Shown piece by piece: positions 39,980 through 57,479 of a stretch of DNA of 64,000 nucleotides. The DNA lies in the NCBI GenBank assembly GCA_947494715.1, contig CANLWG010000003.1:124001-188000 (forward strand). The letters run 5' to 3'. The translations under genes and the position numbers were made by a program. The notes under the pieces are model-generated. The model saw only the letters and a list, made by a program, of their open reading frames with translations. It was not told where the DNA came from and did no database searches. Source of the stretch: an uncultured Flavobacteriaceae bacterium (GTDB lineage: Bacteria > Bacteroidota > Bacteroidia > Flavobacteriales > Flavobacteriaceae). Each line of letters begins with the position of its first letter. Position 1 is the first letter of the stretch.

Positions 39980-40033
39980 AGCGCTTGCCTGGCAGGCAAG
40001 AGGTCACCGGTTCGACTCCGGTATTCTCCACCA
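39957..40033 (+). tRNA. tRNA-Ala (GGC)
   Basis: 77 nt with encoded CCA. Acceptor 39957-39963 pairs with 40023-40029 and has the G3-U70 pair that identifies tRNA-Ala. The anticodon loop is CTGGCAG with anticodon GGC at 39991-39992 and following base. D-arm, T-arm (GGTTCGACTCC) and discriminator A are normal. The 48 bp from 39986 to 40033 are the left attachment core of the integrated element. Confidence 0.95.
39986..40033. repeat. attL core (48-bp direct repeat inside tRNA-Ala)
   Basis: Identical to 57432-57479. It begins in the anticodon stem (TGCCTGGCAGG) and ends with CCA. The base before it differs between the two copies (T at 39985, G at 57431), which marks the edge of identity. Confidence 0.9.
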
Positions 40034-40043
40034 GTAAACACTA

Positions 40044-40078
40044 GGGTTTCAAGAATTTTATTTTTGAAACCCTTTTTT
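40044..40078 (+). terminator. Terminator after tRNA-Ala
   Basis: GGGTTTCAA and TTGAAACCC pair across an 11-nt loop and are followed by six Ts. It lies inside the element, so the element brings a new terminator for the tRNA. Confidence 0.85.
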
Positions 40079-40129
40079 ATTTGCACTCAATTTGCACTCA
40101 AAATTTGGCTTTTTATGGTCTTATATGGG
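40079..40129. repeat. Left arm-type direct repeat
   Basis: A 26-bp block, 40079-40104, holding two copies of TTTGCACTCAA, is exactly repeated at 57308-57333 in the same orientation. After it, TATGGTCTTATATGG at 40114-40128 is nearly repeated at 57343-57357 and resembles 53115-53131. The placement near both element ends suggests binding sites for the integrase arm domain or a directionality factor. Confidence 0.6.
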
Positions 40130-40267
40130 TTAATTTAATGGATTTACTAAACAAGTGAGGTGCTACTGTATTACTTTCATTATTCGGTTTGTATAATGAA
40201 GTTGCATCCAGCCATGTGTAATAGTTGTTTGCAAATAGATTTCCTGCTCCAAACAGTTCTGTCCTTT

Positions 40268-40318
40268 CTTAGGATCTAGTGCCGCCAGGTGTGAGAGTTC
40301 GAGTCTCTCTGCCTGTAC
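40268..40318 (+). pseudogene. 3' half of a tRNA-Leu (UAG), without 5' half
   Basis: Begins at the anticodon loop CTTAGGA (anticodon TAG at 40270-40272), followed by stem TCTAG, a long class-II variable arm (TGCCGCCAGGTG), a perfect T-arm stem GAGAG/CTCTC with loop TTCGAGT and an acceptor-like TGCCTGT A. No matching 5' half (expected ACAGGCA) is seen upstream. It cannot be a working tRNA alone. It resembles an attachment-site scar from another tRNA. Confidence 0.7.
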
Positions 40319-40329
40319 AAAGGGAAATT

Positions 40330-40353
40330 CGACTTTTAGGAGTCGGCTTTTTT
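40330..40353 (+). terminator. Terminator after the Leu(UAG) fragment
   Basis: CGACT and AGTCG pair, followed by GC and six Ts. The downstream bases TTTATTTCTGGTCAAACA recur in changed form after the Leu(CAA) fragment (TTTATTTCAGGTACAACA). Confidence 0.65.
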
Positions 40354-40435
40354 ATTTCTGGTCAAACAAATCGGTGCTCTACTCTATTTTAAAAAGCAGA
40401 TAATTAAGTATCAGAAATCATTGAAGGAATTAATT

Positions 40436-55951: not shown

Positions 55952-55980
55952 TATAATTAAGGGATTCGGATATAGAATTG

Positions 55981-56003
55981 TGCGCCCTAGCGGGCGCATT
56001 TTT
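55981..56003 (+). terminator. Terminator after mobA
   Basis: TGCGCCC and GGGCGCA form a 7-bp GC-rich stem around TAGC, followed by five Ts. It lies 29 bp after the mobA stop. Confidence 0.88.
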
Positions 56004-56075
56004 GTGGATAGGGAGAGAAAAAAATTTTGTGCTCATTTTGTCACCAAAACTTAAGCGAAGGTTACTGCGTGAAAA

Positions 56076-57290
56076 TTAAATTTCTAATCTTTCCTGATAT
56101 TCATCCATAATATGTGTGGGTAGATTTTTAATGTATATTTCGGTTGTGCTAATATCCCTGTGTCCGAGCATTTTGCTCAAAGCATTTATTGGAACATTAT
56201 TGAGAATCAGGTTTGTTGCCATGGAATGACGACTCACATAGCTAGTTAAATTTTCTTCAATTTCACAAAGTTGAGCAATCTCTTTTAGACGTTTGTTATA
56301 TCGTTTTCTTGCCCATCTTACATCTTTATATTGGTCCTGAATTTCATGACGCTTTATTATTGGAAATATATAAGACGTTTTAATTTTATCTTTTAAATAA
56401 TGGTTCATTATTGATGACAGTTGCTCCGTTATCTTAATATCATAAGGTCTGGCAGTTTTTTGCCGACGATATTGAATGCGGCTATCTACTATGTTGTCAA
56501 CTTTTAAAAATGCCATATCAATAAAGGAAATACCGTTCATAAGGTATGAGCAGAGAAAATAATTACGCGAATGGAATAAAGGAGAGTCAGGTTCTAATTT
56601 TAAATCCAAAATACGTTTGATCTTATCTTTACTAATTGCCCGTTTAGCCGTTGGTTGAGTTTTTATCTTATATTTTTTGAAAGGATAAGTATCGGCTGAT
56701 ACCAATTCTTGATGAATAGCTTTGTTGTATATAGCCCTGTAAGTTCTCATGTACGTAGATAATCCATTTATGCTATTGCCTTTTTTTAAATGAGCAGTTT
56801 CAAATCTTTTAAGATAGGCATAGGTCATCTCCTCAAATCGGAGACGCTCTTTTTTATGAAAGTTTTTTAACACGCCCAAGGCACCTATGTAGGTTTGAGC
56901 ATTTCCAAAACGATTTGCCTCTTTCATTTCATCTATCAATCTTTGGCTATATTCAAAAAAACAAATGGAATCCGATGTTTTGGTCAAAGTATATTTCAGC
57001 TCCTTTATGCTTAACCCATCTAATTGACCGTTTTCCTCCAAGGCATTTATGCCGTCTCTTAACTCCGTCTTTTTTTTCATTAGGAGATTATTTAGGCGGG
57101 CAACTGAGGAAACACCTTTATAGGTCTTTTTTACGTCACGACTCTTTTTATTCCAGAATTCGGGAGGCACAGCAAAACCTGTAGAAATGGCAATGGTTTT
57201 ACGATGATGGCTTAATCTGAAAACAATGGGACAAGTGCCATTTTTACGCTTGCGCCTTGTGTCCATCGAGAGTGTGATATTTGTTTTCAT
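56076..57290 (-). CDS. int: Tyrosine recombinase (integrase) of the element
   Basis: 404 residues. Arm-binding N-terminal domain (to about 90), SAM-like core-binding domain (about 105-200) and catalytic domain. Visible catalytic residues: K278 in RRQKTARP, R354 in YVSRHSMAT, H377 in LGHRDIST and nucleophile Y386 in TTEIYIKN. The first arginine is replaced by S255 (MNGISFIDMAFL), as described for the CTnDOT integrase, and the first histidine of HxxR by Tyr351. Reads inward from the right end, adjacent to attR. A 26-bp repeat lies 18 bp before its start and may regulate it. Confidence 0.92.
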   Translation of the reverse strand: MKTNITLSMDTRRKRKNGTCPIVFRLSHHRKTIAISTGFAVPPEFWNKKSRDVKKTYKGVSSVARLNNLLMKKKTELRDGINALEENGQLDGLSIKELKYTLTKTSDSICFFEYSQRLIDEMKEANRFGNAQTYIGALGVLKNFHKKERLRFEEMTYAYLKRFETAHLKKGNSINGLSTYMRTYRAIYNKAIHQELVSADTYPFKKYKIKTQPTAKRAISKDKIKRILDLKLEPDSPLFHSRNYFLCSYLMNGISFIDMAFLKVDNIVDSRIQYRRQKTARPYDIKITEQLSSIMNHYLKDKIKTSYIFPIIKRHEIQDQYKDVRWARKRYNKRLKEIAQLCEIEENLTSYVSRHSMATNLILNNVPINALSKMLGHRDISTTEIYIKNLPTHIMDEYQERLEI

Positions 57291-57307
57291 ATATTAAAGA
57301 TACAAAA

Positions 57308-57357
57308 ATTTGCACTCAATTTGCACTCAAAATGGTGTTTTATATGGTCTTATATGA
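57308..57357. repeat. Right arm-type direct repeat
   Basis: Twin TTTGCACTCAA units in a 26-bp block (57308-57333) identical to 40079-40104, followed by ATATGGTCTTATATG (57343-57357), again as at the left end. It is 18 bp upstream of the integrase start. Confidence 0.6.
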
Positions 57358-57431
57358 ATTCATTTGAAATGTATTCTGCTGAAAAACAGTAGAATATGTA
57401 TTTTTAGAATCGTATAAATACAATAATCCTG

Positions 57432-57479
57432 TGCCTGGCAGGCAAGAGGTCACCGGTTCGACTCCGGTATTCTCCACCA
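57432..57479. repeat. attR core (48-bp direct repeat)
   Basis: Exact copy of the tRNA-Ala 3' end, 39986-40033, including CCA. It has no D-arm or acceptor 5' strand, so it is not a tRNA gene. Confidence 0.9.

Follow-up and report, generated by a model that had tools for sequence, protein, structure and literature searches.

We analysed a 64,000-nt stretch of DNA, here called the window, from an uncultured Flavobacteriaceae bacterium (assembly GCA_947494715.1, contig CANLWG010000003.1, positions 124,001 to 188,000). The host genome comprises 5.97 Mb and is also labelled G000 among the compared genomes. At 39986-57479 the window contains an integrative and mobilizable element (IME) inserted at the 3' end of a tRNA-Ala(GGC) gene, with a sulfatase-containing SusC/SusD locus as cargo and a left end that carries an array of tRNA 3' fragments. 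As originally predicted from the letters alone, the 17.4-kb element is bounded by two exact 48-bp copies of the tRNA-Ala 3' end (39986-40033 and 57432-57479, 100% identical), and the tRNA gene is complete. The following features lie at the edges, including the attachment (att) sites:

39957..40033, plus strand: complete tRNA-Ala(GGC); its 3' 48 nt (39986-40033) are attL, supplied by the element; the same tRNA is found at the empty site in genome G002
40034..40139, plus strand: left arm of the element, with a terminator hairpin and candidate arm-type repeats at 40079-40136
57308..57365, plus strand: right-arm repeat, 86% identical to 40079-40136
57432..57479, plus strand: attR, 48 nt, identical to attL
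57480..59224, plus strand: stacked insert with one lipoprotein-like gene (57895-59199) and no mobility gene
59222..59272, plus strand: ancestral chromosomal tRNA-Ala 3' end, where homology to the empty site begins

The insertion site was compared with both same-genus genomes found by our searches, G002 and G001. G002 is collinear with the window over 38000-40033 and then 59222-63000, the tRNA end being common to both blocks, and its site is cleanly empty. The corresponding position in G001 is occupied by only ~0.36 kb, in which a GIY-YIG-like gene is flanked by two tRNA-Ala ends. The absence of the segment from this site in both genomes bears out its integration at tRNA-Ala. Rfam at gathering thresholds gives the tRNA-Ala as the sole match in 39500-59500. 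Since the homology resumes at 59222 and not at 57480, the interrupted stretch spans 19.2 kb and the DNA to the right of 57479 belongs to another insert. The third tRNA-Ala 3' copy at 59225-59272 is diverged (44/48, 4 changes), and this decay suggests that the 1.8-kb segment 57480-59224 is a separate, older insert stacked behind the element. The predicted right edge holds in that attR ends at 57479, but the ancestral chromosome resumes only at the third copy. The span 39985-57480, proposed for amplifying the ancestral site, is therefore unsuitable, because the stacked segment prevents the ancestral junction.

The mobility genes occupy the right part of the element:

53189..53256, plus strand: candidate origin of transfer (oriT) with three hairpins, almost invariant across the 11 mob modules aligned
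53280..53669, plus strand: mobC, relaxosome accessory (Pfam scan)
53666..55951, plus strand: mobA relaxase with a MobA/VirD2-like nuclease domain (Pfam scan)
56076..57290, minus strand: tyrosine recombinase (Int) with arm-binding, SAM-like and catalytic domains

The Pfam scan took in ten open reading frames (ORFs) of the element, with overlapping opposite-strand ORFs left out. All ten are uninterrupted, and int, mobA and mobC are full length. The scan matched the domains of the right-end recombinase and of the mobC-mobA pair named in the original prediction. The relaxase passes the PF03432 domain cut-off and stays under the NCBIfam cut-offs of NF041325 (Bacteroides MobB) and NF041893 (MOBP-TraI), with 121/400 and 57/250 bits, respectively. 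No type IV secretion system family was found among the ten ORFs. An integrase with flanking att copies at a target gene, together with its own relaxase and no transfer apparatus found, identifies an IME; two TraG-type genes elsewhere in the host genome are possible helpers.

The hairpins noted before mobC number three and are kept in relatives. They form a block of ~70 nt in which 99.4% of the pair cells hold across the 11 aligned modules. Compensatory, both-sided changes occur in 4 of 15 pairs, all in the most diverged sequence (L079), compared to 0.4 in shuffles. This pattern makes the block the best oriT candidate. A search of genome contigs with MobA returned 16 loci, and relatives at E 1e-120 are present in 10 of 349 family genomes, own included (three candidates per genome scored). 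Among the named genera with these mob genes are Arenibacter, Maribacter, Kriegella and Pseudozobellia, and two of the carrier species were confirmed as Flavobacteriaceae. Searched against plasmids, the mob-int region matched over a single 46-bp stretch only.

The cargo lies between the left end and the mob module:

41137..42672, minus strand: sulfatase 1, PF00884, active site CTPTR
42911..44302, minus strand: sulfatase 2, PF00884, active site CSPSR
44411..45802, minus strand: sulfatase 3, PF00884, active site CSASR
45837..47423, minus strand: SusD-like glycan-binding lipoprotein (Pfam scan)
47362..50796, minus strand: SusC-like TonB-dependent transporter with an STN signalling domain, above the TIGR04056 cut-off
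50903..51931, minus strand: FecR-type anti-sigma factor (Pfam scan)
52079..52639, minus strand: extracytoplasmic function (ECF) sigma factor (Pfam scan)

These families agree with the predicted inventory of ECF, FecR, STN-type SusC, SusD and three sulfatases only. The predicted lack of a glycoside hydrolase or lyase is also borne out, with no such family (GH/PL/CE) among the ten scanned ORFs in Pfam, CAZy itself not having been searched. The formylglycine sulfatase maturation motif reads C/S-x-P-x-R, usually CxPxR. It is present in sulfatases 1 and 2; sulfatase 3 has CSASR, and all three pass PF00884. The best match of sulfatase 1 in the PDB is a GalNAc-6-O-sulfatase, with an S1_15 enzyme third, sulfatase 2 best matches kappa-carrageenan sulfatases as well as S1_16/S1_19 enzymes, and sulfatase 3 an arylsulfatase A. 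No substrate could be assigned from these matches. The locus contains the SusC/SusD pair and regulator by which a polysaccharide utilization locus (PUL) can be recognized. A stricter definition, for example in PMC9723552, requires degradative carbohydrate-active enzymes (CAZymes), which the ten scanned ORFs do not include (for this and the other papers cited, statements refer to the available portions of the text). Without a glycan-cleaving enzyme the locus falls outside that definition, and calling it a "complete" nutrient system was too strong.

Relatives of the element carry other cargo. The closest IME, in Arenibacter catalasegens, is inserted at the same tRNA-Ala (Int 97%, MobA 85% identical) between the same chromosomal neighbours as in the window (usp 67%, mate 77%). 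Its two contigs meet in mobC, which gives an estimated size of ~17 kb. The seven ORFs of its cargo (L217:1171-13708) include Avs4, a Fic protein, PD-T7-1 and two Shedu-type proteins; judged by these genes, it is a mobile defence island with anti-phage cargo. Arenibacter sp. P308M17 has an Ala-type left end that leads into a different SusC/SusD-BNR locus (ECF sigma factor, HGSNAT-like, FecR, SusC, SusD, four BNR, RraA, SSF, FAD oxidoreductase and DHDPS-family genes). Broken Int pieces (88-92%) follow this locus, beside another int. The third case is an element of ~75 kb at tRNA-Val in G002 (G002:C9:462009-536924), with a relaxase, an integrase and cargo unlike that of the window. It is very large for an IME. 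Its designation as an integrative and conjugative element (ICE) is unsupported, with no conjugation family among the 25 families listed, of 53, in a scan that covered 39 of its 60 ORFs of at least 100 aa.

Conversely, the cargo occurs on other vehicles. At E 1e-90, SusD relatives occur in six of the 348 other genomes of the family, based on scores of the four top first-look candidates in each genome. SusC, SusD and sulfatase 2 are kept at 75-79% in G105, G214, G197 and G246, which represent four other genera; the sulfatase 2 homologue in G214 is cut by a contig end. FecR (29-49%) and ECF (40-44%, two matching) are far more diverged than these three proteins, as if the switch had been replaced (L101-L104). 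In G105 the locus adjoins a TraG-type gene and an amidase gene. It lies within ~64 kb (G105:C1:1600173-1663915) bounded by a tRNA-Asp and an exact 45-nt copy of its end, with an int at the far end; the segment is probably an ICE carrying the PUL core. A second SusC/SusD pair is also located in this segment. The G197 locus is followed by a GH92 gene and a tRNA-Arg(CCU), and the G246 locus is preceded by a 28-nt tRNA-Met end; for both, these surroundings are only suggestive of mobility. With the same IME bearing other cargo and the PUL core on another vehicle, cargo and vehicle appear to have been exchanged independently. The comparison with related genomes proposed in the original prediction thus uncovered the same element without this PUL, in A. 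catalasegens. The suggestion that selection acts on the element through its PUL is not supported, given the anti-phage cargo that accompanies a 97% identical Int at the same tRNA, the other cargo in P308M17 and in the G002 tRNA-Val element, and the PUL core on the probable ICE in G105.

The 1.1-kb left end, on which the original prediction is silent, contains no ORF of at least 80 aa between 40034 and 41137. Homology to the A. catalasegens element reaches 95% over 154 nt and stops with the left arm (40034-40139). Local alignment to 36 of the genome's own tRNAs detected four tRNA 3' parts within 40268-40793, all on the plus strand:

40268..40318, plus strand: tRNA-Leu(UAG) 3' part, positions 33-83, 47/51, score 43, followed by a terminator-like hairpin
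40439..40476, plus strand: tRNA-Val(UAC) 3' part, positions 34-73, 31/40 columns, score 20, the weakest of the four
40574..40627, plus strand: tRNA-Leu(CAA or UAA) 3' part, 45/59 columns against CAA, score 26
40755..40793, plus strand: tRNA-Asn(GUU) 3' part, positions 34-72, 31/39, score 23, followed by a terminator-like hairpin

The fragments all start close to the anticodon, at tRNA positions 33 (Leu-UAG), 34 (Val), 28 (Leu-CAA/UAA) and 34 (Asn), compared to 30 for the active Ala site, which likewise precedes a terminator-like hairpin on the plus strand. In 200 dinucleotide shuffles the best scores averaged 14.0 with a maximum of 20; one of the 200 reached 20 and none 23, and the minus strand of the left end scores at most 12. 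The Leu-UAG, Leu-CAA/UAA and Asn scores exceed every shuffle, so these three fragments are each beyond chance. The Val fragment leans on its place and on relatives. Across 37 own tRNA genes, one of them with too little downstream sequence, a 3'-half fragment at most 1 kb downstream occurs only behind Ala (4), Asn (1) and Val-GAC (1, a Val copy). Permissive Rfam matches in the left end were rejected as unrelated chance matches, except for a 17-nt tmRNA/T-arm-like piece at 40602-40618.

Two layers of the array have counterparts behind the corresponding tRNAs in relatives. The Leu-UAG layer is 93% identical over 90 nt to the left end of a Pseudozobellia IME in tRNA-Leu(UAG), whose MobA is 79% identical to that of the window. 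The Leu-CAA layer matches DNA behind tRNA-Leu(CAA) in G313 (68% over 284 nt) and G105 (81%). The left end in G313:C15 reads Leu-CAA and then Asn, with the Asn copy inside at 95%, while an older left end on A. catalasegens C7 reads Leu-UAG, a layer 79% like that of the window, and then a Val copy at 98%. These two arrangements are the intermediates predicted by serial site switching. Window 40268-40840 also shares 73% identity with the left end of the G002 tRNA-Val element, where three of the four fragments score. At least one fragment is present in 7 of 18 other left ends, one of these of its own isotype; this is not a frequency, as most of the 18 were chosen for matching the left end of the window. 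The host genome's own tRNA-Asn (L184:9868-10229, G000:C9) is followed by a Leu-CAA 3' fragment and a layer 90% like that of the window.

Target sites in relatives were read from the tRNA 3' copy beside int, or from a full tRNA beside the module. They comprise Ala (A. catalasegens), Val (G002), Leu-UAG (L070, L072), Arg-UCU (L074, L248) and Met (L076, L082), as well as Leu-UAA (L071, L075), where no int was seen. Among eight elements, Int identity within site groups is 97% (Ala), 83% (Arg) and 84% (Leu-UAG), and between groups 24-44%, except for Ala versus Arg at 81-83%. MobA identity is 66-85% throughout the same eight. Two elements of one metagenome-assembled genome (L072, L074) share 84% in MobA and 32% in Int. 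As Int mostly tracks the tRNA site and MobA does not, the integration module is exchanged independently of the mob module.

We propose that the window carries a recently inserted IME at the 3' end of tRNA-Ala(GGC), built on a generic chassis whose cargo and integrase module are exchanged, and whose left end retains four former att sites. We assign this reading a probability of about 0.78. The exact att pair, the empty site in G002 and the same IME with other cargo in A. catalasegens count for the IME part. The interpretation of 40268-40793 as fossil att sites is well supported, and we interpret the array as the trace of integrase swaps that followed one another on a single mobilization chassis, the swap mechanism being inferred.

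Read from the sequence, the integrase joins attP to the tRNA end, and the element supplies a replacement tRNA 3' end and terminator. MobC, MobA and the hairpin block would allow a co-resident ICE to transfer the element in trans. The protein families suggest that a sulfated glycan fragment bound at SusC signals to the sigma factor via the ECF/FecR/STN switch, and that exported sulfatases desulfate material that is imported or passed to host enzymes. Transfer, excision, enzyme activity and substrate are predictions from the genes. While the mobC-mobA core would stay, the cargo and the integrase-attP-left-arm module would be exchanged, and an exchange could place a further att layer on the outside, with the former one persisting within as an inactive 3' tRNA half. 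Modules of int, attP and arm would in this way be gained stepwise outside old ones. It is possible that this proceeds by docking in the left end of another element, followed by recombination between the mob genes, which would leave the order new arm, old att, old body, mob, new int.

Several observations weigh against this reading. The Val fragment alone is within reach of chance, and non-3'-half pieces reach a score of 21 behind three further host tRNAs. From outside in, fragment identity is 100 (Ala), 92 (Leu-UAG), 78 (Val), 76 (Leu) and 79% (Asn); the steady inward fall that had been expected is ruled out by this series. In G002 the Val fragment does not score. The Leu-UAG fragment there begins as early as tRNA position 11, which shows that not every layer starts at the att core. 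The mob module of the window did not appear in the fetched stretches behind tRNA-Asn (G000:C9) and tRNA-Leu-CAA (G313:C15, G105). Eleven of the 18 other left ends lack a fragment at a score of at least 19. The A. catalasegens Ala element is among these, and with no fossil inside its Ala layer, the layers are not simply inherited with the integrase. Finally, the Ala and Arg integrases are 81-83% alike at different sites, so some site changes look like drift rather than swaps; within this clade the site would have changed without an integrase swap.

The layers could also have accumulated as whole elements were inserted and deleted time and again at sites next to each other, without exchange of integrase modules. 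The stacked inserts at 57480-59224 and at tRNA-Leu(UAG) in A. catalasegens C7 are consistent with such accretion, as are the broken Int pieces beside another int in P308M17. One tRNA would however give copies of the same tRNA, and the window array has four different ones; MobA also stays alike while Int changes. We consider accretion a tentative alternative, possible but doubtful. A further proposal extends the module-exchange reading: the stacked sites may be a working docking array, in which integrases of relatives still recognise the old sites, so that elements dock in one another's left ends and recombine via their shared mob genes. This is speculative and unlikely; if true, integrases, target tRNAs and cargo such as PULs and defence genes would be passed between elements across the Flavobacteriaceae.

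The sulfatase locus might instead be an ordinary host locus, enclosed or picked up by chance in an element that no longer moves. Sulfatases are already numerous in the host genome, with 58 family matches that include a few fragments of a single gene, and the PUL core occurs in other genera where the fetched stretch lacks this mob module. We regard this as quite unlikely in view of the empty site in G002, the identical att copies, the full-length int, mobA and mobC, and the rarity of close SusD relatives in the family. The fragments might also be the remains of a tRNA gene cluster that travels as cargo, as in some phages and ICEs, but this is very unlikely. In its favour, different tRNAs lie in the same orientation within 0.6 kb, and the G002 Leu-UAG copy retains part of its 5' half. 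Against it, the 5' half is missing from each of the four copies in the window, which start at positions 28-34, where the active att begins. Terminator-like hairpins follow two copies as well as the active site, and both the Leu-UAG layer and the Leu-CAA layer have matches in left ends of elements or inserts behind those same tRNAs.

In its tyrosine integrase, tRNA 3' insertion, own relaxase and missing transfer apparatus, the element resembles Bacteroidetes IMEs of the NBU1/NBU2/MTnPi4 type, and mobilization by a Bacteroidetes ICE would be expected as for these (PMC5704250). Compared by description and not by sequence, it differs from them in its SusC/SusD-sulfatase cargo and stacked former att sites; its relaxase, as noted, stays under the NCBIfam cut-offs. 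The element is an IME of known kind with unusual cargo. PULs of gut Bacteroides are carried on ICEs or mobilizable plasmids (PMC8845570), and 47 SusC/SusD loci were reported on gut mobile genetic elements (PMC6907783). The window shares with these a nutrient locus on a mobile element but represents a small IME, with no CAZyme family found, in a flavobacterial host. Marine Flavobacteriia possess sulfatase- and GH92-rich alpha-mannan PULs (PMC6298971, PMC9723552). The window likewise combines SusC/SusD with sulfatases, and the homologous G197 locus is followed by a GH92 gene; the window itself has no GH92, and the comparison concerns gene content.

Exchange of integration modules with a change of specificity is described for ICEs and IMEs of the ICESt1 family (PMC5704250), which similarly combine one transfer core with different integrases and sites. 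Unlike these, as far as the available text goes, the window keeps abandoned att sites in order inside its left end. In literature searches with narrow terms on residual or stacked tRNA att sites and on the swapping of integrases, no such stack is described in the titles and abstract openings listed, and to our knowledge stacked former att sites have not been reported previously. PUL transfer among marine Flavobacteriia has often been inferred from sequence similarity (PMC6298971, PMC9723552). In this case one sees the vehicle, its empty site, the same vehicle with a different cargo and a probable second vehicle for the cargo of the window. From the fossil stack, past switches of target site can be read in one sequence, which allows module exchanges in IMEs to be put in order and tested.

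The lipoprotein-like gene of the stacked insert (57895-59199) has no Pfam match. Its relatives are found in G019 and elsewhere in the host's own genome at 29% (2 of 37 genomes matched), and another, at 26%, is located near a different mobC in G313. The ~0.36-kb insert in G001 has a tRNA-like remnant and is perhaps a minimal mobile unit. Small GIY-YIG genes directly adjoin tRNA genes in the window (39719-39979) and at L085:10660-11092 and L103:16052-16336.

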